Shown: piece after piece, positions 8,121 through 37,049 of the stretch | Position numbering within the stretch: the stretch's first letter is position 1 | Layout: each line of letters begins with the position of its first letter | Source: a virus | DNA: 39,578 bases | Direction: 5' to 3' (one strand) | IMG/VR virus record: IMGVR_UViG_3300021962_000253 | Location: 1 to 39,578 of that record | Notes under the pieces: model-generated | Told to the model about the DNA's origin: nothing | What the model saw: only the letters and a program-made list of their open reading frames with translations | The model's database searches: none | Translations under genes and position numbers: made by a program

Positions 8121-8126
8121 TATTTA
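8121..8126 (-). promoter_or_regulatory. Late promoter (TAAATA), near-leaderless, for gp13
   Basis: The minus strand reads CGATAAATACTTGTATGAG; five bases separate TAAATA from the gp13 ATG at 8115. It forms one arm of an imperfect inverted repeat (8121-8129 with 8133-8141, 8 of 9 pairs) whose other arm is the gp14 promoter. Confidence 0.6.
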
Positions 8127-8135
8127 TCGTAGCGG

Positions 8136-8141
8136 TAAATA
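8136..8141 (+). promoter_or_regulatory. Late promoter (TAAATA), near-leaderless, for gp14
   Basis: The plus strand reads GCGGTAAATATATAACTATG. Seven bases separate TAAATA from the gp14 ATG at 8149, so the predicted leader is about 2 nt. The two divergent elements are only 9 bp apart, possible because T4-type late promoters need no -35 box. Confidence 0.6.
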
Positions 8142-8148
8142 TATAACT

Positions 8149-10796: not shown

Positions 10797-10802
10797 TAAG
10801 TA
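10797..10802 (+). promoter_or_regulatory. Weak late-promoter-like element TAAGTA before the Nudix-like gene
   Basis: The plus strand reads TTAATAAGTATCTACATG. TAAGTA abuts the gp15 stop and lies 5 nt before the ATG at 10808; no Shine-Dalgarno is visible. The form and spacing are the same as at 168-173 on the other strand. Confidence 0.35.
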
Positions 10803-10807
10803 TCTAC

Positions 10808-11200
10808 ATGCAAAAACGTGCAGGTATACTTTTTCTTTCTAGTCAAACCCAAAGAATACTGCTAATCCACGAAAATCTAAAGTGGACTGTTCCTACATTT
10901 GAACATCAATCAAATTTACTTGATGATGCAAAAGAATTGATAGTTAGCTTTAAGGGCAGCGAAGGTAGGATAATACCAATCGAACTTTATTTGAGTGAAG
11001 ATCGAGGGTTCGAATACAGTACTTACATCTGCTTAGTAGACTGTGAATTTTTGACTACTAAAATTAATACTATATGTTGGGCTGACTTAGACGATTTACC
11101 TAAAAATCTACACACGGGATTAAAAACAACCTTAAATAATTCTTTAATCAGAAGTAAAATTGAAACTATATTAGTAATGAGTAGGAATTATGTCGACTAG
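10808..11200 (+). CDS. Nudix-fold-like protein lacking the Nudix box
   Basis: A 130-residue protein with the outline of a short Nudix hydrolase: opening strand AGILFLSSQTQRILLIHE, WTVP where Nudix enzymes have W.LPGG, a strand FEYSTYICLVDCEF, and a closing CWADLDDLPKNLHTGLKTTL typical of phage and bacterial Nudix proteins. The catalytic box (Gx5Ex7REUxEExGU) is not there: the matching stretch FEHQSNLLDDAKELIVSFKG lacks the RE..EE core. It is therefore probably inactive or has a new binding role. It follows gp15 and overlaps the next gene by 11 nt. Confidence 0.6.
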   Translation: MQKRAGILFLSSQTQRILLIHENLKWTVPTFEHQSNLLDDAKELIVSFKGSEGRIIPIELYLSEDRGFEYSTYICLVDCEFLTTKINTICWADLDDLPKNLHTGLKTTLNNSLIRSKIETILVMSRNYVD

Positions 11201-11456
11201 TATTTCTAGAAATAAACTATTTGAAAGAGACTGTGAAAAGTATAAAAAATTTATACAAGAATGTACAGACGAAAATATAAAAGATAAAGCAGAATCTCTT
11301 TATAATCAATTCTTAGCACAGGCTAAAGAACTAGATTATTTCTTCCATAACGTGGTCATCGGTGACATAAAGGTCTTTATGCCACAACACCAGGAACATG
11401 GACATAAATTAAGAGAGATTCGATACCAACTCGAATCTCTCTGTAATCAAGCTTGA
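11190..11456 (+). CDS. Small helical protein, unknown function
   Basis: An 88-residue, charged, predicted all-helical protein (LFERDCEKYKKFIQECTDEN, then ESLYNQFLAQAKELDYFF). I do not recognise the family. The start has GAGTAGGAATT before the ATG and overlaps the Nudix-like gene by 11 nt, so translation is probably coupled. The 3' end contains a 12-bp hairpin and overlaps the convergent 1830-residue gene by 10 nt. It could be a virion accessory or a regulatory protein; nothing in the sequence decides. Confidence 0.65.
   Translation: MSTSISRNKLFERDCEKYKKFIQECTDENIKDKAESLYNQFLAQAKELDYFFHNVVIGDIKVFMPQHQEHGHKLREIRYQLESLCNQA
11412..11442. terminator. Strong hairpin at a convergent gene junction, possible bidirectional terminator
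   Basis: A perfect 12-bp inverted repeat, AGAGAGATTCGA (11412-11423) and TCGAATCTCTCT (11431-11442), with a 7-nt loop. It sits within the 3' end of the plus-strand small gene, just before the convergent stop of the 1830-residue gene. It lacks a clear U-run on either strand, so it may block readthrough or stabilise 3' ends rather than act as a classic intrinsic terminator. Confidence 0.5.
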
Positions 11457-14400: not shown

Positions 14401-16939
14401 CAACTTCTCCAGATGGGCCTATTCCGGTTACTCTGATGATAGCACCATTGCTGGTAGTACCAACTGAATCTGGGCCAAACGCACTTGCTGGAATTGTAAA
14501 CGGATATGTTGGATATCTAGTTACACCTAAGGTAATTCTGACTTCGTCTACGAATGCTGCGGCACCATACTGTCCGCTGTAATCGGCACCAATTCTTAAA
14601 GGAACATCTATATTATAATTGTTTGTATCAGTATATGGGCCAGCTAAATTGTCGTTAGCTCCATTAAGCGCAATAGTAATGTCACCGTTGGCTCTGCTTA
14701 CTGCTACATGATACCAAGTATTTAGGGCTAGAGCAGAGCCACCTTGGGCAACTATTGCACCGTTAGAATATACATATACCGCGTTAGAATTTGTTAATCC
14801 AATTAATAAAGCGTTATCGACTGCCTGTGATCTAAAATCTAAAATAGCCTGATCATTTCCACCGGTAGTTATTCTTATTCTAAATTCAATGGTGTAATCA
14901 CTAATACCTAATCGTAATTTATTTGTTGTAGCAGTAGTAATATAACCGGCGGCCGGTGTTGCTCCTAGAGTATTATTAACTCTAAAACTAGAACCCCCAA
15001 AAACGCTCTGAGTAGTAGATACTACAGCATTTCCGAATAATGTAAAAGTTTTTCCAGTCTCATCTAAGAATACTGTAGAATTATTACCGCCGTCAAAGTG
15101 CATTAACAACTGAGTAGTTTCATACACATTAACAGAAGTACCGGAAATCTCCAATACATCGTTAACAGAATAACCTGTTCCTTGATTATTAAAAGTTAAT
15201 AGTGAATACGTTCCAGCAGAATTATACAAGTTAAGGCTTAATCCTGTTCCTAGAGTACCTATGCTGGTACCAGAAATTCCAGTATATGTTCCGCTAATAC
15301 CTTGTCTAAATGCAGTGATCGGTGAATTAAGTGTCACAACATTTCCCACCACGCTAGTAACTGCTGCGGAAGATCCTGTTCCGTTGTTAACCACTAGACC
15401 AGTTTGAACATTGGTAACATTATCTATTGTAATACTATTATCACCTATCTGGCTATTTTCTGCGATAGTTTTAGTAGTTACTGTGCCGCCACTTCCTAAT
15501 ATAGATGTAAACTGAGTACCAGCAGTAATATTCGTTGCCGAAGTAATAGGAGCATTAACGGGAGGCGCTGTGCCAGTAAACGGAATAATGCTGGCTCCCG
15601 ATGGAACATTTAAACTGGCAGTGATTGTACCACTGCTGCCGGGACTATCAACCGTAAATGCAGCCGATCCTAAGCTAGCACCAGTGTAAAAACCTGCACG
15701 TCTTAGCTGAGTGTATGATGTTGCTACAACTTCCTGATCAACTGTTCCTACTTTAGATTTTGCATAATATGTAAAGCTTGTTGCAGTAGGTACTGTGTTA
15801 ACAATAAAAGTACCTTCAGCTCGACTAAAACCTAAAACAGTTGATGCTAATGCTTTAATGGTAATAGGTTGGCCCGCAATCAAAAAGTGAGGGGAGCTGG
15901 TTGTAACGGTGATTAGACTAGGTCCAATATTATTAGATCCTGTTGAAGCGTCTGTTCTAACATCGGTAACAATTAAATCGCTACCTGGAATTTCAAATGT
16001 AGATGGATATCCTCTGTTTGATGTAATAGCCTGCCACTTAGTCGGCTGTAATCCATATTCAAAGTCAGCGTCAATCATAGCCTGTGGAGCAGCTACACGC
16101 ATACGTTCGATCGCATCTGTACCAAAATTCCAAGGTCTTGTGATCTGTTCTTTATTCTCTACAAATATCTGTATCTCGTCGTCCGAAGAATAGGTCGAAG
16201 TATCTGTTACAAAATGTACAACTGTAAATCCATCGTTACCTTGTAAAGCAGTAGGAAAATTTTCATCTTTAGATGCTTTGATATCAACCGTAATTCCCAC
16301 TGTAGGATCAGTGAAATCATACATGATAGCATTTTTTGTTACATTAGAGATCAATAAGAAATTTTCGAGATCGATCTTTTCTGGGATCTTTAATGTTCCT
16401 ACACCATTTACCAATGCAGGCAAAGAAGATAGTCCATTAGTAATAACATTAACTGTGATAGTATTCAGTGTCGTAAGTCTTGCAGAAGCTCCGCCCTCAG
16501 CTGCCGAACCTGTTGTTGTCTGTACTACAGAAAATTGATATGAAGGTGCTAGAGTTTTGGTTAATATGTATGTGTTTATAACACCAATTAACCAATTGTA
16601 AACTGCTATCTCTGGTGCTCTTGTGCCTCCGATTTGAGGAGTAGTACCATCCCAATAATAAGATACTACTTCTCTAGTCTGCCTGTTACCGCCGTAACGT
16701 AGATCATTAAGATATGCATCAATCACATATCCAGTGTCTCTTTGGCACTTCACTGGATCATAATTAAATCCTACAAAAGCAGGAACATTATTAGAAATTT
16801 GATTCTGTATGTAGGCAGTTGACTCTGCTAGGAGATAACTTCTGTTTGCTAATAATAAAGCATAAGCATTAGGGTATGCATTAGAATTTGTCGATGTTCC
16901 TGGTGCAAATATGTAACTGTCTATTTTTCTTTTTGCCAT
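11447..16939 (-). CDS. Giant modular adhesin/tail-fibre protein with LamG-like domain (1830 residues)
   Basis: A virion adhesin candidate. Modules in order: YDPVKCQRDTGYVIDAY...YGGN (~58-130); a segment LLISNVTKNAIM to DADFEYGLQPTKW (~190-305) also found in the 2890-residue protein; beta-rich repeats; a concanavalin A/LamG-like jellyroll (~608-818, from LLMHFDGGNNSTVFLDETG to YPFTIPASAF, with TIEFRIRI and WYHVAVSR); more beta repeats; a conserved region (~1055-1550) from HRPYDGGVQL through RYQSGKG, DDQNGIFFEYDG, DRCDGTG and FSWYGAGF; then a GTYTVSSSQTV module and a closing PNGPD...WSEAQA shared with the paralogue. The start has GGAGAA 11 nt after the upstream stop. The jellyroll suggests glycan binding; that is inference. 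Confidence 0.8.
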   Translation of the reverse strand: MAKRKIDSYIFAPGTSTNSNAYPNAYALLLANRSYLLAESTAYIQNQISNNVPAFVGFNYDPVKCQRDTGYVIDAYLNDLRYGGNRQTREVVSYYWDGTTPQIGGTRAPEIAVYNWLIGVINTYILTKTLAPSYQFSVVQTTTGSAAEGGASARLTTLNTITVNVITNGLSSLPALVNGVGTLKIPEKIDLENFLLISNVTKNAIMYDFTDPTVGITVDIKASKDENFPTALQGNDGFTVVHFVTDTSTYSSDDEIQIFVENKEQITRPWNFGTDAIERMRVAAPQAMIDADFEYGLQPTKWQAITSNRGYPSTFEIPGSDLIVTDVRTDASTGSNNIGPSLITVTTSSPHFLIAGQPITIKALASTVLGFSRAEGTFIVNTVPTATSFTYYAKSKVGTVDQEVVATSYTQLRRAGFYTGASLGSAAFTVDSPGSSGTITASLNVPSGASIIPFTGTAPPVNAPITSATNITAGTQFTSILGSGGTVTTKTIAENSQIGDNSITIDNVTNVQTGLVVNNGTGSSAAVTSVVGNVVTLNSPITAFRQGISGTYTGISGTSIGTLGTGLSLNLYNSAGTYSLLTFNNQGTGYSVNDVLEISGTSVNVYETTQLLMHFDGGNNSTVFLDETGKTFTLFGNAVVSTTQSVFGGSSFRVNNTLGATPAAGYITTATTNKLRLGISDYTIEFRIRITTGGNDQAILDFRSQAVDNALLIGLTNSNAVYVYSNGAIVAQGGSALALNTWYHVAVSRANGDITIALNGANDNLAGPYTDTNNYNIDVPLRIGADYSGQYGAAAFVDEVRITLGVTRYPTYPFTIPASAFGPDSVGTTSNGAIIRVTGIGPSGEVATIQTLNTGTAPGNSGQEYYYLSPTPIPGQGSGAVFTVRRQSGTYSVVAVTTPGTNYQSNNKIRVLGTALGGATPANDLVIEVGVVLGTGVSTASAFSGTASTTGTSLAFLSSVSLNAVTTGAITSGATITYGSLARILVSLGSAHGLLPGNAISTVITSAGTNHQLAAGPFFVEEVPNPQTLKYSCRTTGTVQAGLTGILYPRSDGFFVHRPYDGGVQLGTGGPQHGAQAIRMSKKYIRYQSGKGAMYNTGALFAPSYDLRSATASGLTIGSTITFVVDDNDHGLQVGAIINVTGIVSLGYNGTYTVSEIIDERTFRVITSTTLRTTSAVLGAQSQISCKFWHGSVVRSGPFDDQNGIFFEYDGTQLAVVKRSSTFQLAGTASINVDSNSLIGTNTRFLDQLKVGDRIVIKGMTHVVSQVNSQTNIAVTPDYRGTSNAVNAKICLTQDLKIPQSQWNLDRCDGTGPSRYVVDVTKMQMIGIQFSWYGAGFIDWMFRGPKGDYVFCHRLKGNNVNTEAYMRTGNLPVRYEVLNEGARTRLASAMTNSQTTMSLEDGSFFPNVGTVYCENELISYSAKSGNTLTGLVRSASLTNFAAGAQRSYTAGPAATHAVNSGVILASVTNSPLISHWGSAYLIDGGFDSDRGYLFNYQLTSFSATTAKQCAFLIRLAPSVSNAVPGDLGERELLNRSQLLLKSIEVIGGTSGQTIVVEGVLNPQNYPTNSAVFTGSISGTTLTVTAMNSGVIVVGQTLTGGGSPSITPTLTITALGTGSGGVGTYTVSSSQTVGIGTIFASPSTVNWFALNNAAQGGLPSFCQIALGSDTSFEGAGTTVTAALTSNLQSGRTTAQFSNASVAAVQVGWTATSAASIPSGTAVTRVQIDTPTSGTTSITLSKAATGTITSTTNFSFSAPGYANPGEQVFAFAANTGDRQILELSDLKELTNSAVGGRGAFPNGPDVLAINAFVTSGAANTVSLLLRWSEAQA

Positions 16940-16950: not shown

Positions 16951-18111
16951 TTAACTACCCAACGCAATGCTGAGTGCTAGGCTTTTCCTTGTTGAATATA
17001 CTTTGGTAGCTACCAGTGGGTTAGTTTCTGGTGCTGTAGTCATTGTTGTGCCGTCATCAAAATTAATCTGTCTAGAATATAATTTATCCCAAAGACGATT
17101 AGGGTTACCTAAAGTATATCCTTTGTTAGTATCTGGTACTATACCGTATTTTACTCCGCTCACTGGTGTGGCGTTGTTAGAATACACAGTTTGACCTGCG
17201 CCACCAGTATATGCACTACTTGATGTTGTAATAGTTACCTGTGCCGGGAATGTACTGCCGTCATAGTTATCTTCGCGAATGTTAAAGACACCGCTTAAAT
17301 TTAAATGTCTTAAATCGCTGGTATCAGCTGCATGGAATCCATCTGATGAAACTAATTGACCTGTACCCGATTCACGAGTTAGTGTCAGTGATCCAATTTG
17401 TACGGATCCTGTAGATCCTAGATACAAATTGTTAAATCTTTTTAAGGTTGTACCAATGTTAATATTAGATAACTGAGGTACTATTGTGTTATGAATGATC
17501 AATTCATCTTCAAAGCGAACTTTACCAAAATGATGCATTTCGGATAAAACTCTAAGTTCGCTAGAATCTGTTGTGTTTAATTCTGTTCCTTCTATACTAA
17601 CACCTTGCACGACGATTTTTTCTGGTGCAGTTAATGTAAGAGCACCACTCGATGTTAAATTAATACCATTAGCAGTAATTGATGTTGAGCTGTTAGATTC
17701 TAAACTCAGTGTTCCGTTTTCGTAAACATACACTTTAGCTGTATTAGCTGAATTTCTTACAGCCACTCTGGTTACATTAGTTGTGGATTTAATCTCAAAA
17801 GAAAGTGGAGTATCGTTAATAGTACCTGCCACTCCGCTAGCATTATTAACAGTTAATTGTCCGCCTTGTGGAATAACCACGTTAGCAGAAATGTTGCCAG
17901 TAACATTAACTGTTCCTAATGTAATATTTGTAGGTAAATTGCTTAGATCAGATCTTAGCAGAGTATATCCGCCCGGTTGATCCTGATTATAAAGTCGCAG
18001 AGTGTTAAACTCAAAATCGTAAGTTACTTCACCTCTAGATCCCTGCCTAATTAATTTAGAAGCAGGTTCTGATAAACGCAATCTGGTTGCAACAATGTCT
18101 TTTCCGGCCAT
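16951..18111 (-). CDS. Fibre-like virion protein (386 residues)
   Basis: A beta-rich, Ser/Thr/Asn-rich protein without Cys. It starts MAGKDIVATRLRLSEPASKL and has strand-turn repeats (NVTGNISANVVIPQGGQLTV, SITANGINLTSSGALTLTAP), then a LGNPNRLWDKLYSRQINF segment seen in phage fibres that carry 'time series' repeats, and a C-terminal VYSTRKSLALSIALGS. It is first in a two-gene operon with the 1830-residue adhesin, with a late promoter upstream (18132-18137). It may be a trimeric fibre shaft or adaptor that anchors the adhesin. I do not know the exact family. Confidence 0.75.
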   Translation of the reverse strand: MAGKDIVATRLRLSEPASKLIRQGSRGEVTYDFEFNTLRLYNQDQPGGYTLLRSDLSNLPTNITLGTVNVTGNISANVVIPQGGQLTVNNASGVAGTINDTPLSFEIKSTTNVTRVAVRNSANTAKVYVYENGTLSLESNSSTSITANGINLTSSGALTLTAPEKIVVQGVSIEGTELNTTDSSELRVLSEMHHFGKVRFEDELIIHNTIVPQLSNINIGTTLKRFNNLYLGSTGSVQIGSLTLTRESGTGQLVSSDGFHAADTSDLRHLNLSGVFNIREDNYDGSTFPAQVTITTSSSAYTGGAGQTVYSNNATPVSGVKYGIVPDTNKGYTLGNPNRLWDKLYSRQINFDDGTTMTTAPETNPLVATKVYSTRKSLALSIALGS

Positions 18112-18131: not shown

Positions 18132-18137
18132 TATTTA
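18132..18137 (-). promoter_or_regulatory. Late promoter (TAAATA) for the 386/1830-residue fibre operon
   Basis: The minus strand reads GCTAAATATTAGATAGGAC. The predicted start near 18126 gives a ~15-nt leader with AGGA before the ATG at 18111. It lies 14 bp after the upstream terminator. Confidence 0.6.
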
Positions 18138-18196: not shown

Positions 18197-21100
18197 TTAA
18201 GCCTGAGATTCTGTCCAGGTAATACGTGCAGTAACCAGTGTTGGATCTGTAGTTTCTGTCGGAACCACGCACATTGTAATAATGTCTGGTCCGTTTGGAT
18301 ATACATAATCGCCACCTGTAATACTGTTACCCAATTCTGCTAGAGAGCTCAAATCTTGTGCAGTACTGTTGTTACCTGTACAACGGAATTCATAAATCGT
18401 CAATCCGCCTGTGATAGTATCGTTAACTTGACCAGTATGTTTAATGATCTGTGTCAACGATGGAGCACCGTAGGACGAGAAGTATGCTTGTTGTGACAAG
18501 CTACCGTTTAGAACAAGTCTAATAGAAGCAGGTGTTGTCTTACCAGCTGTTGCGTATGTAATAACGATACCAACCTGTTGTAACACTAGAATCATTCGGT
18601 TAATAAGATCTCTTTCTCCTAGTGCTCCTACTAAGTTTGTGTCAACGCTAGGTGCTAGACGTAGACTCAATACAGGACAAGGTGTTCCTACACGGCTAGT
18701 TGGAATACTAATAGTGTCTGAGCCGCCTGAACCAGAAGCTACTGAGAACAAGTAAGCTTTGTCGTCTTCGAACACACCGTCCATGATCATCGAAGCACCC
18801 CAGTGATACAAGCTTGGTGCATAAGTTGGGGCATCACCGTTTCTGATCTCATAACGTGCTGGTATGTTACCAGAACGTAGATAAGCTTCAGTTTGATGGT
18901 TATTGTTGATGATCTCGTGTACATAAATCACGTGACCGTCGATGCCTTTAAATCCAAAACGGATCTTACCAGCACCGTACCAGCTAAAGTCGATGTAGGC
19001 CATCTGCATCTTGTGGATGTCTAGATTAAATCCATGACGTCCTGTTCCATCACACTTGTCAACACTCCATTCATATTGAGCGTATTTCTCATCAATGGTT
19101 TTAGTTGCTTGTACTCTAGCCTTTGTTGATCCTCTGTAAGCAGGAGTAATATCAATACTGGTGTTGCTGGCTACACGGGTTACCTTGTAGCTCATACCTC
19201 TGATAACAATAAAGCTACCAGGTGTCAATTGACCAGTGAAGTTAGTGTCAACACCTGTAACAGTGTTACTACCTTTCACTACTGATAATGTACCACCCAA
19301 CTGTTGTGTACTGAATCTCTTGACACAGTATAACACTTTACCATCATATTCATAGAACATACCGTTTTGATCGTCAAATACACCTGCACGTACTTTAGCA
19401 TCGTTCCAGGTGTACACAAACATTCTTGGGAACCCGTACGGTGTTGTATTTGCAGGAATACCATTTGTTCTATATGTGATAGTAAAGTCATCTACAACAC
19501 TAGCCACTACAAAGAATGGACTTGAGTTGTCTGGTACTGTATAAGGAGTTCCTCTAACAACGTTAGCAATCAATGATGTCTTGGCAGCATCGATAGCTGT
19601 CTTAGCAGTTTGTAAACCAGCTGCTGCCCAGGTTACGCTAGGTGCAGTTCTAGTAAAGGCTGCTAGTGCTACGTTAGCTGCGGTCTGTGAAACTGCATTT
19701 ACTTGGCTGATAGTAATATCTACGAAACCTTGTACTATAGCAGCATCACCAGATGTAGCATTGTTGCCCGATGTCACTTGTGATTCAGTGTTAGGCATAG
19801 AACCTGTAGTAGTCTTAGTAATTGCAATACCTTGAACGATTTGACCAAGGATAGTTTTTAGTCTATTATAGGCTGCTACAGTTTGTGCTCTGTGATCTGA
19901 ACTAGTTCCTGTTCTACCATCTGTGAAGTAGTAGTTAAAGAATTTGCTGACATCGTAGCTAGCACTGTTTCCGCCATATAGAATATCATATGCATATGCA
20001 TTGATAACATAGTTAACGTCACGTGTACACTTAGCAACATCATGATCGTATGCTGGGTATGTTAATGCTACCCAAGCATTGATTTCTGCTGTGATAAATG
20101 TTCTGTTAGCTACTATCTTATCTTTAGCAGCAATCTGTGATGTTGTAGCAGTACCTGGATCGGTATATGTCACAGTATCAGCAGCCGATCTACCATTGTT
20201 TAAGATGTCTACAACTTCTGCCCAGAAAGCATTGTTTCTAGTAATAGCTGTAGAATCTGCGATAGTATAAGCAGACAGATAAGCACCAGTTTTCTGGATG
20301 TTAGTAATAACTGGATTAGTAATTTCTTGGCTGTTGTAATCAGCTAGACCTAAGAATACAGCATTATAATTTGTACCTAAGGTAATGTCGTATCCAACAC
20401 CGTCAATGAAATAGCCTAAATCACGTTCGCATTTTACTGCTTCGTATTCGCTCTGTGCGCCAACCTGATCAAGTTGTATCTTTGATCCTACTGATAGTTG
20501 ATGCGGACGACGTGTCACAACTGTGGCAAATGTAGTGCCATCGTGTGTGATACGGCTAACGTCAATGCTAGGGCTGAAGTTCAAACCAGTTGACCATTGT
20601 AAGCCCTTACCAGATTGATAACGGAAATACTTACGTGTCTGACGGACGATACTTACGTTTGGACTCTTGCTAGCGTTGATTTCAACACCGCCGTCAAACG
20701 GTCTGTGTACGTTCTGGCAGTCTGGGCGTGGTAACAATTGTGTTTCTTGAACAATTGGCAATCCAGTTAAAACACCGTTACGGATGTTTCCATCTACCTG
20801 GCTGGTATAGAAGTTTCTTGTTGATATACTGTTGTTAGAAACTGTACCTGCACTTGCAAATCTAACCAATGAGCTAGAACAGATCGTAGTAGCGATCAAG
20901 TAGTGTGTCACACCAGAACCAATAGTGGTTAAGTCTTGAGGAATACCTGCAACTGAGTTTTGATCGGTGGTTGCTAATTTAATTAAATCATCGTTAACTT
21001 TGATTACATAATAAGCAGTACCATCTGTTAAACCACCGATTGCAGAACCTGAACCAATAGGTCCAAATGTATAAACTACTTTTGTACCTGTTAGAAAACC

Positions 21101-24100
21101 GTGATTTGGAATCAAGATTTCATCGTTGGCCAAGTTAACAACCTGATATGTTAAACCAGCTACAGTTGTTGTAGTTTCTGCCGGGTTAAATGTAACAGCC
21201 TTAGCAGTATATGGATCGGAAACTAACATTTCGGTATCGCTAGTTACAGAAATAACCTGCAATTCCAATGTACTATTTTCTAAGATCTCAAATTTATGTT
21301 GAGTACCTGTACCTGTACCAGTAATGTTTACAGCGTAAGCAAAGTTACCGCTATCACCAGAACCGCCTCGAATACATTCTGCATAACTGTTAAACAATGT
21401 GAATACGTTAGCATCACCTACGTTTACATAGTAAACCTGGTTTGGATTCAATCCGGGAACTGGAACCGCTGCTAGACTGTTACCTGTGCTACCTGAGTAG
21501 TAATGGTTAGCACCAGTTCCTGCAAAGTTAGTACCGAATCCGTCTACACGATATATTACACAATCACCAGTGTTTAATCTGTGGTTAGTGATAGTAATGG
21601 TGTTATCTGCGGCACTAACCGCTGTGCTAGCATCGAACGGTAATGTTCTACGCAATGCTGTATTTGATAACTTGATAGTGTCACCAGAACGATAAGTTGT
21701 TAAGAACTTGGTCTGATAAGCAGGCAAATTCAGTACTGGTTGCCAATCTGTTGAATACAAACCGGTTGCAGTTACCACTGGCTGGTTACCTGAATTTAGG
21801 TTACCAGTAATACCAGTTAATGACATATAGTAGGCATTTCTAAACAGTACGATATCACCGAATCTGTAACCGTCTGCCGAGTTCCATTCACCTCTATATG
21901 AATTACCAACTAATGTTGGGTTAGATACTTTTAATGTATGCACAGAACCACGACCAACACCTAAGATGTCAACACGGTCTGTATTGGTATAAGCACCTAC
22001 CCATGTGTTGTGTAATGAGAACTGGTTAGCTGTTTGTCCTGATGCAGCACCACCAGCTGTTGCGCCGGTAAACACTGTGTTAGAAACGAAATATGTTCTT
22101 CCGTTTACTAAACCGTTTACCTGACCGCCGTTGGCCCAAACCTGATAAATGACACGGTCGCCAGTTACCAAACCGTGATTATTAACTACAACACGATCAG
22201 TTGAAGCCTGAATAACAGTTGAGCTAGACCCGTTAAATGTCAAGTCACGTGCAACGATAGTTGCTAGACCTGGAGCAAGTGATTCACCCCACATCTGGCT
22301 AGTAGTAAATGTATGACCTACACCACCAGTTGGAGCAGAACCAGGACCACTAAATCCCTTCAATACGGTACCTGCGATAGCATTGGCCTTGGTAGTTGCT
22401 AAACAGAAAGCGTTTAAGCTTCTACGAACAACATAATATGTTGTATTGTTGGTTAATGAGATATAACCTGTATACGGTTGTCCTGATCCTTCGCCGATTG
22501 CAAATGTTAATGAACCTTTGCTATAAGTGACTGCTGTTCCTGTTTGAAATCCGTGGTTTTGAATATAGAATTCACCGTTTTGTTGATTTAGAACAAAGTT
22601 AGGATCAAATGTTAATACACGTTGCGGAACACTTAGACCTGTTGGCAATTGGATCGTTGTGTTAGTTACAGCCGATGCTGTATACCCACCGTCGAATGCT
22701 CCTGTAGCTGAACAATCAACTAATCTGTGCTGTACAGCAGAGCTGGCTAAACCAGTCAACGGTGCTGCTGCATAGTATTGTAGGAATACCCACGCAGTAC
22801 CTGCCGTAGTGATGTTGATTGGGAAGCTGGCATATGCCAATGCTTCTGTAATCGCCACACCAAAGTTGTTTTCGTCTTCAACAATAGCATAGTACAGATC
22901 GCCTGCTGCTAGGGTAATAGTACCTGCACCAGTTGTAACTGCACCAGTTGTTGTTGAAACAAAAACCATTGTTTCGCCTGGTTTCAAACCGTGGTTGGCC
23001 AATAGAATAGTCTTTCTAGTAGTATCAGCTGCACCACCGTTAACTAAACGAGGTACAAACTGTGTGGTCGTATACAATTGGAAGTGACCGTAACGACGTT
23101 TAATTACAGCACCATCTGAAATAATCGCTGAGGTTGTTCCATTTACTGCTCTTGTAACAGTTAATGTTAAAGACGCAATATTAGTAATGGTCATGTCTTC
23201 CGAACCAATTCTAATTGTTGCTCCTGTGGCTAGACCTGATGTACTAGTCACTAAAATAGAAGTAGCAGCAGCAGTATAATTGCCATCAACACGGCCAACT
23301 ACATTATAATAAACGTTGTTAGCATTTCTTATTAGATACTGCTGATTGTTGATCAAACCAGGAATAACACCAGTAAAGTTGTAAGCTACAATATCACTGG
23401 TTCCTCGATTTTCATAACGAACAATAGCATTCTCGATCAGGTTTTGACTTTCAAACGGAACAATAATTCTGTTTGCAGTAATGTTTTGAATTAATCTGCT
23501 GGTAAATGCATGGCTGGTCGTTGTGCTGGTAATTGCAGTAATTTGAACTGTGTTATTACCTGTTGGTAACTGTGTAGCTGCATAATCTTGCACTTTAAAG
23601 CAATTATTGTTTACAGGAACGCAGTAATATGTGTTACCACTGGTCAATCCTGTAGCAGCGGTAGGTGCTGTTAACTGCATCTTAGCACGAGTATAACGAA
23701 CGTTGTTAACGTCACTGATAAAGTCAAATAACGGACCAGGATAGTCTAATGCAGTTGGATATCCGCCTTGTTGTCCAGTTCCGCCCACTGCTTGGTTAGT
23801 TGATGTGCCACCGTGATTGAGTAACCAGAAGCTGTTAGAATATAAGTTTTCTTCAATTCTTGTGACAAAGAAAATACCAGCTCCAGCTGTAGTTGCACCG
23901 GTAAAGTTAACCGGTGTACCACTTGGCGTTAATGCTAGTGAGAATTCAAATACTGGAGTTCCTGTATTACCTAACATAATAGTTCTAACATAATACTTTT
24001 GATAAGAAGCATAAGTGTTAGGAGTGTTTGTCAACGGCGTAGGTAATGTTGAACCAGTACCTTGAGTTAAAATTACCGGGCATCCTTCTGTTAAGTAACC

Positions 24101-26869
24101 AGGAGCTGTTTGGAAGGTAGCAATCGCTCTGTCACGACCATTACCAGCACCACCTGTTGCACCTTGTGCTGTAAAGTTGCTTACAGAGAAACCAGGGTGT
24201 AAATGATAGATACCACCAACTAATGTGTTAGCTGTGTTAAAGTTAACAGCAGTAGCACCTACAGCCGAACCATAAGGTCCTGTACCAGAAATCGTCTGTG
24301 TTGTTCTTAGTTGGATTTCATCTGCGTTAGTTACAGATGCAAAATAAATTGCTCCATCACTTGGAGGTGTAACACCTGATGTCCAAGTGTTACCGCCGCC
24401 GATAAAGATTAACGGTTCAGCTGTACTTAGACCGTGATTCTTAATGTAGATACTGTCACTTAGAACGTTTTGTCTAGTGAAAGTCATAGCACTAATACTG
24501 TACCAGTCATGGTGACTTAGACGCAAGTGGTTGATCCATTGTTGATCGTGTAGGTAAATCCTGAATCTCGCATCAGTCATTGCAACTGCTGGGCTAACTG
24601 TTTGGCTTACACTCACAGTGTATGTACCAGTTTGCCCTGCTGTATAGAAGTTTACTGTTTGGCTAGTAATACCGGCTGTTAAATTATTGCTTAGTGTAAC
24701 AGTTGTTCCGCTAATAGCTGTGACAAATGTGTTGCTCGGAACACCACTTGCGCTGGTTACAAACTGTCCTACTGCGATACCAGTAGCACTAGATACAACA
24801 ATAGTATTTGTTGATACAGTACCTGTAGCAGTTGGTGTAGCTGCGGCAGCGTTTGTTGCAGTTAATTGTGCGGTAACGGTAGTTCCAGCAGAAACGCCAG
24901 GTCCTTGGATAGTCTCACCAACTGTAATTGCTCCACTAGTGATAGCACTAACGCTCATCGTAGTTGTTGAGATAGATGCTGTAAATGAACTAGGTGTTAC
25001 TAATGGATCATAACGTAAGAAACTGGTTGTTCCATTGGCTGCGGTGTTTGCTGTATTTGCTGTGGCTAATGTATAAGTCTGTGATACACCAGAGTTAATC
25101 AACACACCAGAACTGTTTGTAGGACCGGCTGCTACGAATGTAGTGCCAGTAGCAGTCCAGTTTGTGCTCTGAACTACGAACACACCACTTAGATTACTGA
25201 TTGAGTTAGCGATAGTGATCTGTCTCTTAGGAAAGATCTTATTGCTTTCGTTAGTTCCAGAAGCTAGTGTAAATGTATAGGTAGACTGACCGCTAGTTGC
25301 TGCTATGCTAGAAATTACAGGAGTAAGATCACTACCTCTCTTGAATAGTGCAAAAGTCTGTGTTAGAGAACCAGTACCTGTAAATTGAATTAGGTTAGTG
25401 CCGTCATATGCATCTTTGGCATTACTTGCCACTCTTATGTTATTTTGATCAATCACTACAGCATATAACATACCGCTGTTAGAAGTTGACCAGGTAGGAA
25501 TTTGACCAGATGAAAGAGTAAATCGTCCAGTGCCTAGTGCTGCGATCTGTGGAATAGAGCCAGTAGAAGCAGCTCCTACATATGCTATCATGTCACCTGT
25601 GGCTAATCCGTGATTTGGAATAGTGATATAGTGAGTAACGATTGATATGTTTGTGGCGATAATATCTCTGCGTATAACACCTTCGTGGAATGGTTCTAGG
25701 ACTTTAATTTCACCAGTTCCTAAACCTTGTCCAGTCATTGCTGTTGCAGAACCAACAGTCTGAGACACTGAAATTGTGTAAGTACCATTAGCACCTGTAC
25801 CAGTACCTAGTGCTGTAATATATGTACCAGCTGTTACACCAGAGCCAACAACACGTTGACCAATAGTAATGTAACCAGTTGGAGTTGGGGATGCGTTAAC
25901 AGTCAATGTTGTAGTAGAAATAGTTGCTGTAAAGCTGCTTAACTGACCTAACAATGTTGAACGATCGTCAACATCTCCACCGTTGGTAATACTTACTGGG
26001 TTAAAACTTTGAGTGTATCTTGGTAGGGTGTTAGCCAGATAGAATGTTGCATTAGTTTTAAAACCGTGGTAATATGGAGTTGTGATAGTTACTGTGCTAG
26101 ATGCCTGTGCATCAGTAGTCATTGGACCACTTAAATTAGTAACAGTATTATCCGCAGCAATTGTAGATCCTACATAGTAACGGCCTGGAGTAATGCTAGC
26201 ATATGGAGTAAAAATACTTACTGGAACACTTACTGTACCTCTTTGTACTGCTTTAGCATCAAAAGTAAAACTTAAATCTGATGTTCTTTTAACAACAAAT
26301 GTGCCTTCTGCTGTTGAACTATCAAGACCTCTAACATCTAACGGAGTACCTGTAGCAAGACCATGTGAACTAGAGCAAGTTACTGTAACTGTTCTTGTTC
26401 CGTTGACTGTAACATCTGAAATAATTGTCAATGGCACATCACCTGTGGCTGCATAGAAAGCAGGAACTTCGTTTACACGCTCAAGTGTTTCCCATTTAGA
26501 AGCTTGTAATCCGTATTCAAAGTCAGTATCGATCAACGTATTTGGTTGAGATACACGGAACTTGTTTACTGGATCCAGTAATGGTTCTTCTGGTGAAAAT
26601 TTAGCTGCTTCATCTTCGATGAAAATCTGTATCTCATCAGTTGCGCTCATCGCAGCACAATCATACTGCATCACAAACGAAGTTGTTTCGTATGTGTTAT
26701 CATATGTTCTAGATAAAACTTTTTTAGTTGTATCTGCGAAATTGAATAGAACTATGTTTCTAGTGACGTTTGTGATTAGTAGTAAACGTCGTGTTGCTAC
26801 ATTTCCATCAACTGTGATCTTATCGTTTGCAGGATCAAATGTGTAATCAAATATAAGTCTTTTTGCCAT
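18197..26869 (-). CDS. Giant repeat-built adhesin/tail-fibre protein (2890 residues)
   Basis: The largest gene here (8.7 kb). Residues ~28-170 ([16 protein letters not shown] to [14 protein letters not shown]) and the C-terminus from ~2055 ([44 protein letters not shown], ending WTESQA) are paralogous to the 1830-residue protein. Between them are about ten loose repeats with an NHGL-x-TG-x-x-V-x-Y signature (for example [46 protein letters not shown]), spaced 100-250 residues apart, and two Ig/fibre-like [11 protein letters not shown] modules. Two KCxRDxxYxIxxxxYD modules lie at ~2140 and ~2276. It is probably a long extended fibre that contacts the host. The start has AAAGGG and a late promoter upstream. 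Confidence 0.8.
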
Positions 26870-26888: not shown

Positions 26889-26894
26889 TATTTA
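26889..26894 (-). promoter_or_regulatory. Late promoter (TAAATA) for the 2890-residue adhesin
   Basis: The minus strand reads GCATAAATACACTAAAGGG. The first three bases of TAAATA are the TAA stop codon of the upstream 1109-residue gene. The leader is short and carries AAAGGG before the ATG at 26869. Confidence 0.6.
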
Positions 26895-29800
26895 TGCTCC
26901 TAGTGCTACCGCCTGGGCAACAATCAAACCATAAGTGTTAGCCAGTTGTGTATCCACGTAAGTCTTTACCGCTTGTTCGGTCGGTACTGCTAAATTCGAA
27001 TTTCCGCTCATAGTACCGTCTGAACTAAATTCGTTAATCGATTCTCCGATTTGTGCTCCTATGGAACCCAAACGTAATGCTGTTAAACCAGTCAAATCAA
27101 ATGCGCTGGCATTAAGTGTTGCTCTACCAGTTGCTTGATCGACTTTAAAGTAATCCCCTACTCTAAAATTACCATCCTGATCAGTACTTACATAGTAAAC
27201 ACGACCTTCTACTCTTTCAACAACTTCATTGGCCTGTACAGGTGCCTGTGTTGGAGTACCAGGATAATTGGTAGTTACAGTTCCGCCAGTTCCGATATTC
27301 AAGAAATCATGACCTGTTAGTCTAATCTTAGAATATTGATATCTGATCGACGCTGCTGTACCGTCGTTGCTAGCAGTGGTCTTATCTCCAGTCAGTGAAA
27401 GAACTGCATAACCTGCTGGCTTATAACCAGTTCCAGATAATGTCCATTCGCTAACTGCTTGGATGACATACTTGGTGCTGTCACCGGTAATGGTTAAACT
27501 ACCTCCTGCCTGCGGCTGAGTAGTAAATCCGCTAACCACAACAGTATAACCTTTCTGTCCAGTAACGCCACCGGCTGCAACAGTTGCGGTTGCCAATGTT
27601 GTATTATCTCTAATAGTTTCACCTACTACAAAAGGACCTCCAGATATAATCTTGTATATTACTCTGTTCGAAGCTTCCTGAACATTTAAAATTCTTGCAG
27701 TAGTACCAGAAGTCAAACCTTGTAACACATTACCAACTGACAGACTGCCGCCAGATAATGTTAAGTTTGACCAGGTCAACATATTTCCATATAATGTACC
27801 GGTTATTGGAGTTTCGCCTGCATCAACTCCGCTGCTAACAGAACCGTACAATCCGTAACTATTATTACCGTTTAGTGAACGAATAATACCACCGGCTGTA
27901 GTTGCATAACCAAAATCGCAATAATATGTAAACAATGATACAGTTTCTACTCTAGCACCATTTGATACCCAAAGGCCAACACCCTGATCGTGTATGTTGG
28001 TGTACGAATGGAATACCATTGATTTATTACCGCTAGCATGCAAACTTCCGTCTACAAGAGCCCCGCATCCGCCCGAGCTGATCGCAGCACATTCCATAAC
28101 ATATGGAGATTTTGTAGTAACAGGACTTGCAGAATTTAATGCCACAAATACGCCACCTAAAGTAGCTGCTGTAATATCTTCAGGAGTTACTCCACTCTTA
28201 CTGAATCCGTTTAATCCGGTCATTGTAACTCTTGACAGCTGGCTACCGTTGCTCATCCTAAACATAGTTTTTGTTTCGTCGCCGGCTTGAGGCTGGATAA
28301 TTGTTGTACGTTGACCATCACCACATATATGCACACTGGCCGGAATAATAATAGGTAAAGCTTCAGTGTATGTACCTGCCGCAACAAAAATTGTTGCTGG
28401 ACCAGTTACTTGTGTGCAAGCATATGCGATTGTCAAGAATGCTCTGTTTTTACTTCTTCCATCATTAGAATTGCTGCCTTGCGGGCTAACATAATAAACG
28501 TTAGCACTATAATTGTTATTTTCCCAAACAGGGTCACCTGCAGAACTAGCTACTAGAATCTGGCCGTTGGTACCAATTGGTAATCTAGCAATAGCACCAG
28601 CTTGATTCTTAAAGTACATGTCACCGCGTGTGGTTAAGACTGCACTTAAAGTACCTGCTTGTGCAACAAGATTCCATTTTAATGGACTAGTATCTGGTTG
28701 TTGATTAAGGTTATCACTGTCGATAGAAATCCAAGAACTTGATGAGTATTCAACAACGTCATCTAATTCATACTCAGTTGCGCTGGACCATGTGCCTTTC
28801 CAGCTCATGCCAGATGATAGCAATGCCCAATACGTAGCATTTGGCGGTTCAATGTTTCCTGCTGTATTAGATGTGTGACCTAAAATACAAACATAAGAGC
28901 GTCCGCCGTATCGAACAATGTCACCGATCACATATGCTGTGGCGTCTGCATAGGTACCTTTCCAGCCTACAGCGTCAACGAACAATGACCAGTAACTAGC
29001 GTTAGTTGGTAGATTACCAGAACCTTGCTGAATACATAGATATAATCTTGGACCGTAGCTAACAACATCACCTACTTTATAAGTTGTTGCACCACTGTAT
29101 GATGATTTAAAATCGTAACCTTTGGTAAACACATCCCAATAGGTTGCATTAGATGGATCATTACCGGTTGTGTCTGCTTTGGCAGCATAAAAATTACCGC
29201 CGTAGGCAACTAGTTCGCCTGGTTTATAAGCTGTTGCTCCGGAATATGTTCCAATAAATGTGTAACCTTTGGTAAACACGTCCCAATAGGTTGCATTAGT
29301 TGGAAGATTACCTGTTGTTGTTGATTTGGCAACATAACGGAATCCGCCGTAACCTACAGTATCACCTTTCTGATAAGTGGTTCCGCCGGCATAAGATCCA
29401 AAGTATGCAAAACCAGGAGTTAAAATATCCCAGTAAGTTGCATTGTCGGGCGCATTGCCTGTTGTATCTTGATTGGCGACATAAGAATAAGAACTGTAAC
29501 TTACGATGTCACCTTTCTTATATGGTGTTCCTGCGCTGTATGCACCCCTAAATTGAATACCAGTTGTGATAGGTGTCCAATAAGTTGCATTCGTTGGAAG
29601 ATTACCAATTGTTGTTTGTGTTGCTACATAAGCATTAGAACCGTAGCTAACAACGTCACCTGGTTGATATGTAGTTCCTGCACTATATACGCCTTCAAAT
29701 TGTAAACCAGATGCAAATAATGTCCACTTAGTTAAATCAAAACTAGCACCAGATGTATGATAAGTTGTGCAAATGTATAACTGACCACCGTAGGTTACTA

Positions 29801-30221
29801 GATCGTTATATTTGTATCTTGTAGTAGATGCCCAAGATCCTTTGTAATCGATACCATCGTTGAGAAGTTCCCATTTGGCAGAGTCATTTTCTAATCCCAA
29901 CGATGTTGTAGCAGAGGTATGTCCTAATATACAAATATATGAACGACCACCATATCTAACAATGTCACTGATCTTATAATAGGTTGTCTGTGCCCAATTG
30001 CTAGCCCAGGCTTGACCGTCATTCATCAACTGCCATTTTGGAGTTGCGTCGTTTAGATCGCTGTAAAATCCCCCAGCAACGTTTGAGCTAGATGTATGTA
30101 ATGCCACGCAAACATAAACCTTACCACCATAACGAATCACGTCGTCACGTACATAAGCCGTAGAAGTATTCCAGGCTCCTTTCCATACAAATCTTAATCT
30201 ACCAAGTTTAAACTCTGCCAT
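26892..30221 (-). CDS. Tail-fibre protein: ten-fold carbohydrate-module-like repeats plus beta-helix (1109 residues)
   Basis: Residues 11-523 are ten tandem repeats of ~49-62 residues with the pattern (K/R)G-x-(W/Y)...Y...D-x-V-x-Y-G-G-x-x-Y...(G)N-x-P-x-N-A-x-Y-W, resembling chitin-binding type-3/CBM5-12 modules. A link follows ([20 protein letters not shown], ~527-545) that recurs in phage fibres. Then a right-handed beta-helix-like region begins with [16 protein letters not shown] (~578) and [20 protein letters not shown] (~605-625). The C-terminus has [17 protein letters not shown] and [19 protein letters not shown], common at the ends of aquatic phage fibre proteins. Likely a glycan-binding fibre. 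The start has AAAAGGACG and a late promoter upstream. Confidence 0.82.
28653..30191 (-). repeat. Ten tandem repeats within the 1109-residue fibre gene
   Basis: The units are 62, 54, 49, 49, 49, 49, 49, 49, 54 and 49 codons long. Repeats 4-8 (147 bp each) are the most alike, including a shared DNA core CCAATA(G/A)GTTGCATT on the plus strand near 29141, 29283 and 29578. The outer units are more diverged, which suggests growth by unequal exchange in the middle of the array. Confidence 0.85.
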
Positions 30222-30255: not shown

Positions 30256-30261
30256 TATTTA
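30256..30261 (-). promoter_or_regulatory. Late promoter (TAAATA) for the 1109-residue fibre gene
   Basis: The minus strand reads GTAATAAATATTAAAATAGC. The TAA stop of the upstream gene (30264-30262) directly abuts TAAATA. The leader is ~29 nt with AAAAGGACG before the ATG at 30221. Confidence 0.6.
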
Positions 30262-32585: not shown

Positions 32586-34115
32586 TTAACCGAAGACAAT
32601 GGTATAAAAATTAGATAGTTCTTCCATTTCGGCTTGCGTAACTACCGAACCAGCACCAGTGGTAATATTATAAATTGAACCATCCCAAATTTCTAACTGG
32701 TTCACATCAGTATTGAATCTTAGATAACCAATTTCTGGAGCAGGAATTAGACGACTGGCAGTATCGCCTGTTGGAATAACAACTGCGTTAGTTCCTGTTA
32801 GCCTATAGTAACCTTGATTTGTAGATTTAAATTCTACAGCACCACTACTAGGATTAATAAACGCACTACCTTGTATGCCTATGTTGTCTAGTTTCACTTC
32901 GCTAGAATTACCGTAGAATTCTAAGTTAGTGTTTAAGCTATTAGAGCTTATGCTGTTGTTATCTATAGTAACCTGGTCTACATCTACTCTTATGGCAGAT
33001 AATTTAACAGAATCTACACTGGCTATTTGAGATCCTGCCGCAGTAAAATTGATGATATTACTAGAAATATCTCTAGGAGTAGTAACGCGAGTAGCAAGGT
33101 CTGTAGAGTATAATCCGGCAAATGCTCCTCCGAGCCCACTAAATGTTCCGAATGTAGTGTTGTATCGTAAGTCTCCGATTACAGGATTCGGATATTGGGC
33201 AACTGTTCCTGCAGGAAATCTCAACGATGTTGTAGAATTAATTATTAATTGTCCGCCGCTGGGCGTAAAAACTATAGACCTCTGCAGATCATTGGTAGCT
33301 CCAGACCAACTGTTTTCTATAGTATTATTAACTATTCTTATTTTTTCTGCTAATACACCGCCAGAACTATTACCGCTTAATTCTAAATTAGCATTAGAAA
33401 TAGAAGTACTGATTCTATTTTGATTGATCATAACACTGTTACTGATCAATGGATCACTGATATAAGCAGTTCTCCAACGTTTAAGAGTACTGCCTAAATC
33501 GTATGTGCTGTCTACTCCCGGCTGTAAAGTCTGTGTTAATTCTGGTGTTAAACTTAGAGTATCAGTTGTTTGATCCCCGACGGTAATATTTCCACCAAAT
33601 GAGAAATTGCCGTCTATTACTATATTACCAGTAGAACTATAATTACCAAAAATTCTAGTATTAGATCTAAAATCTACAGTGCCAGTTCCGTTTGGGTCAA
33701 GTGCTATTGGTGTATTTGAATTTCTACTTGATATTACATTGTCATTTAATTGCAAATCGTCAGTAACTGTTTTACTGACTAACACTGTCCCAGTACCATT
33801 CCCAGCTCGAACATAGATAGGGCCGCTGATACTGCCTATTTGATTATTGTTAACTGTGAGATTACCTAGGGTCCCAGTCAAACCAATTAGATAATCTGTT
33901 TGAGTAGTTCCGTTGATCTGAAGATCTCGCCTGAGAGAATCAGTCTTAATTCCTATACCCTTTCCTAACCCAGATAATAGATTAGGATCTTCAGAAGTCT
34001 GTGGGGGTACTTTAAGATATAATAGGCTAGTCTCAAACGCTAGATCTACTCCAAACCTCTCTAGGTTTGAAGTTAACATCTGCCCTGATATTCTACCTAG
34101 TTCTGCTCCAGGCAT
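32586..34115 (-). CDS. Fibre-like virion protein B (509 residues), paralogue of the 497-residue protein
   Basis: It opens LGRISGQMLTSNLERFGVDL, followed by AFETSLLYLKV, as in the 497-residue protein. It has the same shaft repeats (NDNVISSRNSNTPIALDPNG, NQNRISTSISNANLELSGN), the GNITVGDQTTDTLSL segment, a TYDLGSTLKRWRTAYI segment and C-terminal LRFNTDVNQLEIWDGS. AAGGAG precedes the ATG. Last in the operon from 36649. Likely a homo- or heterotrimeric fibre shaft; two related copies may form different fibre segments, as with the T4 long tail fibre. Confidence 0.75.
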   Translation of the reverse strand: MPGAELGRISGQMLTSNLERFGVDLAFETSLLYLKVPPQTSEDPNLLSGLGKGIGIKTDSLRRDLQINGTTQTDYLIGLTGTLGNLTVNNNQIGSISGPIYVRAGNGTGTVLVSKTVTDDLQLNDNVISSRNSNTPIALDPNGTGTVDFRSNTRIFGNYSSTGNIVIDGNFSFGGNITVGDQTTDTLSLTPELTQTLQPGVDSTYDLGSTLKRWRTAYISDPLISNSVMINQNRISTSISNANLELSGNSSGGVLAEKIRIVNNTIENSWSGATNDLQRSIVFTPSGGQLIINSTTSLRFPAGTVAQYPNPVIGDLRYNTTFGTFSGLGGAFAGLYSTDLATRVTTPRDISSNIINFTAAGSQIASVDSVKLSAIRVDVDQVTIDNNSISSNSLNTNLEFYGNSSEVKLDNIGIQGSAFINPSSGAVEFKSTNQGYYRLTGTNAVVIPTGDTASRLIPAPEIGYLRFNTDVNQLEIWDGSIYNITTGAGSVVTQAEMEELSNFYTIVFG

Positions 34116-36733: not shown

Positions 36734-36739
36734 TATTTA
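36734..36739 (-). promoter_or_regulatory. Late promoter (TAAATA) for the five-gene fibre operon
   Basis: The minus strand reads AGATAAATACAATGTC. TAAATA begins with the TAA stop codon of the upstream small gene. The predicted start is ~36728. An ATG 2 nt past the element is not in frame with a long product. Confidence 0.55.
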
Positions 36740-37006
36740 TCTTTGGGAAAGTAATGCCATCAGTTCAATTTTTTCAACTGTGCCGATAACTCTGTTGATT
36801 TCATCTAACTCTTTTTGGGCAAGTTCTAGATATTTTTTGCTCTTAGTTTGCCTGTAATGCACACCAGCTATGGAAAAATTTTGTATGTGATTTTCTACTA
36901 TGTGTTCAATTTTATGGACATCGTGTGCAAACAAAGGAAAACGTTTCTTCCAGACTTGTATCTGCTTTCTTAATTCAGGAAAATCTTTATCACTTTCAAC
37001 CTGCAT
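36737..37006 (-). CDS. Small helical protein downstream of gp23 (89 residues)
   Basis: A charged, helical protein: MQVESDKDFPELRKQIQVWK, HDVHKIEHIVENHIQNFSIA, RQTKSKKYLELAQKELDEIN and a closing VEKIELMALLSQR. Similar small proteins follow gp23 in aquatic T4-like phages (from memory); function unknown, perhaps capsid assembly. An in-frame ATG at 37057 is possible, but its first 17 codons would run through the gp23 terminator hairpin and encode CFKKALRSLFVWLKYL. The ATG at 37006 lies 4 nt after a TAAATA element, past the terminator, and gives the compact product, so I prefer it. Confidence 0.7.
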   Translation of the reverse strand: MQVESDKDFPELRKQIQVWKKRFPLFAHDVHKIEHIVENHIQNFSIAGVHYRQTKSKKYLELAQKELDEINRVIGTVEKIELMALLSQR

Positions 37007-37010
37007 CAGA

Positions 37011-37016
37011 TATTTA
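37011..37016 (-). promoter_or_regulatory. Late promoter (TAAATA), near-leaderless, between the gp23 terminator and the small gene
   Basis: The minus strand reads GGCTTAAATATCTGATGCAG; four bases separate TAAATA from the ATG at 37006. The terminator ends 7 bp upstream, and no Shine-Dalgarno is present. Confidence 0.5.
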
Positions 37017-37023: not shown

Positions 37024-37049
37024 CAAAAAGGCTCCGAAGAGCCTTTTTG
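37024..37049 (-). terminator. Rho-independent terminator of gp23, UUCG loop
   Basis: An 11-bp perfect stem, AAAAAGGCTC (37025-37034) with GAGCCTTTTT (37039-37048) plus a closing C-G. The loop on the minus transcript is UUCG, a very stable tetraloop, followed by a U-run within the stem. It starts ~27 nt after the gp23 stop. Confidence 0.88.

Follow-up and report, generated by a model that had tools for sequence, protein, structure and literature searches.

Predicted leaderless late genes behind T4-type late promoters in a group of uncultured T4-like jumbo phages

Late-promoter cores beside start codons in the window

T4 late genes are classic Shine-Dalgarno (SD)-led genes. On the minus strand of the virus record studied here, a TAAATA late-promoter core (37011-37016) stands 4 nt before the ATG (37004-37006) of a small gene, which raises the question of whether late mRNAs of this phage begin at the start codon itself. 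The window, that is, the whole stretch of 39,578 nt that was analysed, forms a virus record of 39.6 kb and carries T4-type genes for head, neck and tail. By gp23, its nearest named relatives are the jumbo phages Phosso (a Sinorhizobium phage, 73% identity) and Vibrio phage 2.275.O (70%), followed by PA5oct (69.5%) and by CBB and GAP32 (69%), the last two belonging to the same broad phage group as the window. For gp13, 65 named records matched, all at less than 60% identity (best 45% among the 25 matches listed), and gp13 of uncultured contigs is up to 83% identical to that of the window. The window is a member of an uncultured T4-like jumbo phage group. Two very long ORFs, 11447-16939 (1830 aa) and 18197-26869 (2890 aa), lie amid its structural genes.

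The original prediction held that seven genes carry a TAARTA box 4-7 nt from the ATG and lack an SD; every pair was found at the place and distance described, and the SD is absent from all seven spacers. The small gene (36737-37006, minus strand), which is predicted to be leaderless, encodes 89 aa without a Pfam match, and its box is kept at 4-8 nt in 10 of 11 distinct homologous starts. A terminator-like hairpin with a T run (GCTCTTCGGAGCCTTTTT; 37025-37042, minus strand) was identified just upstream of this box; the ORF can be extended upstream to an ATG at 37057, and the hairpin sits between that ATG and the 37006 start. Also on the minus strand, a TAAGTA core (168-173) stands 5 nt before the ATG at 160-162 of a gene that extends beyond the contig end (box kept in 29 of 34 homologous starts), and a TAAATA core (2145-2150), again with a terminator-like hairpin and T run just upstream (2157-2184, minus strand), stands 5 nt before the ATG at 2139 of a predicted leaderless tail-tube-like gene of 387 aa (976-2139, minus strand; PHROG tail tube, E = 4e-7; 51 of 56). 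On the plus strand, the ATG at 6356 of a predicted leaderless HNH-endonuclease-like gene of 110 aa (6356-6688; E = 2e-6) follows a TAAATA core (6345-6350) by 5 nt (87 of 88), and the ATG at 10808 of a predicted leaderless 130-aa gene without PHROG or Pfam match and with no function assigned (10808-11200) follows a TAAGTA core (10797-10802) by 5 nt (45 of 55).

The remaining two promoters stand back to back in a 33-nt gap. The TAAATA core on the minus strand (8121-8126) lies 5 nt before the ATG at 8115 of gp13, a predicted leaderless gene for the 252-aa head-tail adaptor Ad2 (7357-8115), with 55 of 68 homologous starts keeping the box, all at 5 nt. The TAAATA core on the plus strand (8136-8141) lies 7 nt before the ATG at 8149 of a predicted leaderless or near-leaderless gene of 400 aa (8149-9351; PHROG virion structural protein; box kept in 64 of 68), which had been named gp14 and is called gp14-like here. 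A pattern search recovered 51 distinct versions of such back-to-back promoter pairs. The two genes are divergent in the window (7357-9351), and gp13 and gp14 are in tandem in T4 and S-PM2.

TAARTA is depleted in the window as a whole, with 41 sites vs 95.5 expected from shuffles. Starts with a box at 4-7 nt numbered seven vs 0.056 expected over 27 genes (Poisson P ~3e-13); when 80 candidate ATGs were used in the same test, the expectation was 0.17 and P was ~6e-10.

Six further boxes had been listed as late promoters with ordinary leaders. Four of them, all TAAATA on the minus strand and 19-34 nt from their genes, hold up: 6283-6288 (33 nt from gene 2860-6249, whose leader has GGGAG; leaderless state in 0 of 70 homologous starts), 18132-18137 (20 nt before gene 16951-18111, leader with AGGA; 0 of 2), 26889-26894 (19 nt before gene 18197-26869) and 30256-30261 (34 nt before gene 26892-30221, leader with AAAGGA). 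The boxes at 32567 and 36734 are weak examples, at 102 nt from the gene start at 32464 and 84 nt from that at 36649. The SD sites claimed for genes inside operons are clear in many of these genes but not in all, none being visible at 34675. As for the claim that the start class is tied to the position in the operon, leadered boxes too stand at intergenic gaps, so the leaderless class is not simply the first gene of an operon; leaderless starts are more often found after terminator-like hairpins.

Box-to-ATG spacing and its conservation in related phages

Uncultured viral contigs were scanned with gp13, gp23 and gp19, and the best 80 of at least 600 candidate stretches were taken for each; the related loci were picked on protein similarity, and the motif was not used for the choice. 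Together with the window, 235 related loci gave a set of 236 sequences, in which ORFs were called by one rule. In this set, TAAATA was counted 58, 254, 3, 46 and 15 times at a distance (d) of 4, 5, 6, 7 and 8 nt from the ATG, 18 times in total over d = 9-16, and increasingly again from d = 17; SD sites are usual where the box is at least 17 nt from the ATG. TAAGTA was counted 35 times at d = 4 and 44 times at d = 5, and a trough is not clear for this variant because 19 cases fall at d = 9-16. A spike combined with a trough was found for none of twelve control hexamers in the same 236 sequences. Their largest single value was 46 for AATATA at d = 5, a peak that can come from the gp14-like starts, where the sequence is TAAATATA and the box lies at d = 7; other local peaks were those of AATAAT (34 at d = 3 and 37 at d = 46) and ATAATA (30 at d = 2).

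Box-bearing genes were clustered into 201 families and one random member was drawn per family. This draw gave 18.1 starts at d = 4 and 29.2 at d = 5, then 6.3, 6.4 and 4.4 at d = 6-8, 0.6 at d = 9 and no more than 2.6 at each distance over d = 9-15. The d = 7 peak of the full set is mainly the gp14-like family, and some matches at d = 4-8 are spurious, such as an ATG within gp23 (family 24). Four long contigs (353, 280, 186 and 132 kb) were read in tiles and held 33, 24, 19 and 15 ATG starts at d = 4-5, i.e. 91 among 2688 candidate ATGs; at d = 9-16 they held 18 ATG starts in all, about 2 per distance, indicating that a few of the 91 will be background. GTG or TTG starts at d = 4-5 in the same four contigs were 2 among 2574 candidates. 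We also counted patterns on both strands of whole records, using the window and 18 related records from the contigs behind L001-L235, longer ones first. TAARTA-N5-ATG occurred 210 times vs 57 for the reversed pattern, and the N12 spacing was depleted (38 vs 97 reversed). The N5 counts were flat in the four cultured phages counted in this way, namely PA5oct (20, with 17 reversed), CBB (25, 19), Phosso (4, 4) and T4 (15, 12).

Gene by gene, the box at 4-8 nt is kept in 341 of the 380 distinct homologous starts of the seven window genes. In six control genes it was found at 0/64, 0/70, 0/2, 0/71, 0/74 and 1/29 starts, 1 of 310 in total. The counts exclude alignments beginning after query residue 8 as well as starts that lie near contig ends or have no ATG nearby, and each distinct 40-nt upstream sequence was entered once. 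A start was taken as leaderless when any in-frame ATG within 45 nt had a box at 4-8 nt, a rule which favours the leaderless class and was applied to the controls alike. A more distant box, at 9-54 nt, was seen at 25 starts of the seven families, 20 of them with an SD word; a gene tends to one of two states, either a box at the AUG without leader or a box upstream with an SD.

The two states of gp13 were placed on a tree of 113 proteins, in which 81 leaderless members including the window form one supported clade (100/99), one further leaderless case (L394) lies among PA5oct-like relatives, and all 31 leadered members fall outside the leaderless clade, so that two changes suffice. This is the second of two trees. 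It omits L403-L409, in which the choice of ATG is ambiguous as an ATG overlaps the box end, as well as box-less gp13 starts, proteins below the length limits and duplicates; the first tree, which included the distinct members of L403-L409, needed three changes. The leadered outgroups suggest that the leaderless state is the derived one, with the root placed at the midpoint. Leaderless use may extend beyond the gp13 clade, since 9 TAARTA-N5-ATG vs 2 reversed were counted in G007, the record that contains L230, and the gp13 of L230 is among the leadered ones on the tree.

Start-site context and competing explanations

The T4 late box lies at about -13 to -6. A T4 review places this box of eight bases roughly one turn of the helix before +1 and gives T as the consensus at -13, with A at nine sites (PMC2988020). 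On our reading, in which the -13 T is the first T, the T4 box covers -13 to -6 and is followed by a 5-nt spacer and then by +1. In this register, +1 coincides with the A of the AUG at d = 5. The T4 +1 would fall one base downstream of that A at d = 4 and two bases upstream of it at d = 7, and these two spacings need a flexible choice of start. The core found in these phages is TAARTA, with A as the preceding base in 58-60%, and the first T of TATAAATA is not conserved.

The base before the ATG was a pyrimidine in 62 of 66 starts at d = 5 and A in 1 of 66, and 339 SD-bearing genes had 152 pyrimidines and 149 A at this place. At d = 4, the base was A in 0 of 30, a pyrimidine in 16 of 30 and G in 47%. 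At the equivalent promoter position of leadered boxes, pyrimidine and A were equally frequent (54 of 123 each), indicating that the pyrimidine preference is not a general promoter feature; it looks like a constraint of the leaderless arrangement and not of the promoter. An A adjoining the AUG would presumably compete as the transcription start.

An SD word of at least 4 bases precedes 69% of 123 leadered starts and 51% of 671 first starts of genes without a box, against 6% of the 96 starts classed as leaderless. Among the 341 leaderless homologous starts, 63 have an SD word upstream, which lies ahead of the box in the cases seen and which we attribute mainly to the AAGG before the box in the 6356 family. 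The predicted structure of the first 45 nt of the mRNA showed no clear difference between the two promoter classes (mean MFE -3.36 for leaderless and -3.58 for leadered genes; -4.36 for SD genes without a box). The median gap to the upstream gene was 26 nt for leaderless, 42 nt for leadered and 1 nt for box-less genes. Moreover, a terminator-like hairpin with a T run within 80 nt upstream was found at 92 of 477 leaderless and 24 of 406 leadered starts, and at 5 of 700 box-less starts sampled from 1577.

The original prediction had named a distance peak in relatives together with a missing SD as its test. The outcome is strongly positive, and the interpretation as leaderless late mRNAs is supported on this comparative evidence, the transcripts being predicted ones. 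We consider it probable, at roughly 0.87, that T4-type late promoters start transcription at the A of the AUG or no more than about 2 nt away from it and so give leaderless or near-leaderless late mRNAs; the RNA start at the AUG, the late expression and ribosome initiation on the 5′-terminal AUG are what we infer from genome sequences. In such a scheme, gp55-RNA polymerase would open the TAARTA box and start on the A of the AUG, and ribosomes would engage the 5′-terminal AUG with SD pairing not being used. The recurrent leaderless set would comprise the neck gene gp13, the adjacent gp14-like gene and the gene for the tail-tube-like protein, in relatives also the large terminase and other virion proteins, and other late units would have the same box at least 17 nt upstream with an SD leader. 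When CBB gp55 was used as the query, a gp55 homologue was identified in 10 of 14 records, which are all 10 related records of at least 103 kb (E = 6.6e-58 to 8.3e-50; 42-48% identical to CBB gp55), and was not found in the four shorter records, the 39.6-kb window included. The near-absence of GTG and TTG starts fits the description of leaderless translation in E. coli as AUG-dependent, with AUG preferred over GUG and UUG (PMC9031893).

Several other explanations were weighed against this one. The genomes are compact, and A/T-rich hexamers might fall near ATGs through short intergenic gaps, the median gap of box-less genes being 1 nt. Compaction should give a smooth distribution, whereas a spike at 4-5 nt and a trough at 9-16 nt were seen; no control hexamer has both, and GTG/TTG starts have no spike. 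Chance placement is rejected on the strength of the control hexamers, the 9-16 nt trough, the one-per-family sampling and the reversed patterns, and we regard chance or compaction as negligible. Mis-assigned start codons, with the true starts further up- or downstream behind ordinary leaders, might be suspected since an in-frame start codon exists further upstream in 34 of 96 leaderless ORFs, with an SD word in 6 of these 34, and since the 37006 ORF is readable from 37057. However, 62 of the 96 have no upstream start codon, the box is kept in 341 of 380 homologous starts, and a downstream ATG or GTG within 20 codons with an SD of at least 5 bases was found in 0 of 96 leaderless genes vs 12 of 469 genes with an SD at the first start (3 of 96 vs 33 of 469 with at least 4 bases). 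At 37006 itself, homologues keep the box at this start and the hairpin lies between it and 37057. Mis-assignment therefore seems highly improbable.

A/U-rich sequence close to start codons can help initiation, and the box near the ATG could then be a translation signal, read by the ribosome or S1 on longer transcripts started upstream; read-through RNA may exist, as the upstream gene is no more than 12 nt away at 40 of 97 leaderless starts. We find this account unlikely, if less so than mis-assignment, because the same box is found together with an SD, at least 17 nt before the start, both in other genes and among further members of the same families, because the terminator-like hairpins lie directly upstream at 92 of the 477 sites, because a gap of 33 nt separates gp13 from the divergent gp14-like gene, and because the box matches the T4 late core and the long relatives carry gp55. 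A different kind of proposal is that the phages copy the style of their hosts, which would be bacteria with common leaderless genes. This concerns why the arrangement exists, not what it is, and it is compatible with late transcription starting at the AUG. Some bacteria do use many leaderless mRNAs (PMC9031893), but SD words are present at around half or more of these phages' other starts. A weak argument against it is the presence of bS21 in three related records (G001, G002 and G007), since the bS21 family was found in 6 of 14 control genomes and without a match in the control genomes of Thermus, Deinobacterium and Corynebacterium. Host style as the reason seems rather doubtful to us.

Known systems, translation factors and gene content

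The promoters resemble T4 late promoters (gp55/gp33/gp45; TATAAATA) in the TAAATA core and in the gp55 homologue of related records of at least 103 kb. They also resemble the late promoters of CBB and GAP32 (ATAAATA, 35 sites in CBB; PMC5259590), where the core likewise stands before structural genes; the excerpted account of CBB and GAP32 in that paper does not mention leaderless RNA. We compared box distances with one 49-kb region each of T4, CBB, Phosso, Atu_ph07, Vibrio 2.275.O and S-PM2 and two of PA5oct. The numbers of boxes at d = 4-5, 9-16 and 17-45 were 0, 5 and 16 in T4; 0, 2 and 15 in CBB; 0, 1 and 13 in Atu_ph07; 0, 1 and 11 in Vibrio 2.275.O; 0, 0 and 14 in S-PM2; 1, 0 and 13 in Phosso; and 2, 4 and 35 in PA5oct. 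Summed over these regions, 3 boxes lie at 4-5 nt and 117 at 17-45 nt, and the T4 structural region has 0 boxes at 4-8 nt from an ATG, unlike the 15-33 starts at 4-5 nt in each long contig of the uncultured group. The contrast is not absolute, because PA5oct has two boxes and Phosso one at d = 5. By this comparison, the leaderless arrangement appears to be rare or absent in the cultured relatives examined, and gp13 has an upstream box and an SD in PA5oct, Atu_ph07 and Vibrio 2.275.O. The d = 5 boxes of PA5oct, a phage otherwise leadered, belong to the start at 24080 in L236 (prohead scaffolding protein) and to one start in L382.

A 5′-terminal AUG without SD would also be shared with bacterial leaderless mRNAs and that of lambda cI (PMC9031893), which according to the same source are rare in enterobacteria. 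Unlike lambda cI, the arrangement is predicted here for many genes of one phage, for a phage late sigma factor, and beside SD-led late genes. With huge phages that encode ribosomal proteins (PMC7162821, PMC9723584), the group shares the status of uncultured jumbo phages and, in G001, G002 and G007, bS21; the huge phages bearing rpS1 are described as having few identifiable SDs, and in the text available from these papers 'leaderless' occurs 0 times in PMC7162821 and 'leader' 0 times in PMC9723584. A paper on phage AR9 calls phage transcripts 'often leaderless' and gives AR9 leaders of 26-491 nt (PMC5312081). In PMC9004378, which matched 'leaderless', 'late promoter' and 'T4-like', the first of these terms comes from the reference list. 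Among the matches listed, T4-type late promoters giving leaderless transcripts were reported in no open-access title or abstract opening. Phage genes of the leaderless kind are already known from lambda cI, and it is the coupling of leaderless genes to T4-type late promoters across a phage group that appears to be new.

Phage-encoded bS21 was identified in 3 of 13 related records (in G001 at 33352-33510, locus L289:1471-1707) and in 2 of 3 cultured relatives, PA5oct and Phosso. Because the latter two are nearly all leadered in the regions examined, bS21 is not specific to leaderless phages. Tracing the host through bS21 was not successful: a genome scan gave one match, a Bacillales MAG at 41%, and a PDB search returned bacterial, mitochondrial and other bS21 chains. 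T4 RegB is an SD-cleaving nuclease; it was rejected as a reason for SD loss, as REGB_T4 was found in 1 of 14 records, T4 alone. Phage IF3 was rejected as a cause too, being present in CBB and Phosso and in 0 of 10 related records searched.

We tentatively suggest, as a possibility still well short of even odds, that T4-like jumbo phages converted recurrent late genes to the leaderless form, that one late sigma factor feeds two modes of translation initiation, and that the late ribosome state (e.g. fewer competing SD mRNAs, or phage bS21) favours the leaderless set. If this is true, the mode of translation would add a level of control to late gene expression. With tens of genes whose late-type promoter is placed 4-5 nt before the AUG, and with SD leaders retained by its other late genes and by the cultured relatives examined, the phage group is a natural experiment on the gain and loss of leaders, with gp13 in both states and two changes on the tree. 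For annotation, start callers that expect an SD may misplace such starts. A base-resolved prediction of RNA 5′ ends follows from the box spacing.

Families with the box at d = 4-5 include gp13, tail-tube-like, large terminase, virion-structural and baseplate-connector proteins, with weak matches to internal-head proteins. A DAHP-synthase-family protein and a fatty-acid desaturase belong here as well, so the leaderless class is not purely structural. Metabolic genes near a box are L263:18929-19693, with cytidylyltransferase and mannose-6-phosphate isomerase domains (d = 5), L245:864-1697 of the DAHP synthase I family (d = 5), and L257:13847-15049, a class I/II aminotransferase whose box at d = 8 lies outside the 4-5 class. 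A predicted leaderless gene at L242:6803-8845 encodes a protein with CHASE2 and adenylate/guanylate cyclase domains, which seems an unusual cargo for a phage. Finally, M+I-E-L/I...E+A is a type of N-terminus that recurs among some predicted leaderless or near-leaderless genes (d = 4, 5 and 6), one of which also has an ATAGATSA-type stretch similar to a stretch inside gp23 (L247:648-824, L271:12791-13051, L241:19309-20000 and gp23 of L098 being the set for the two comparisons); this could be a propeptide or a prohead-protease cleavage signal.
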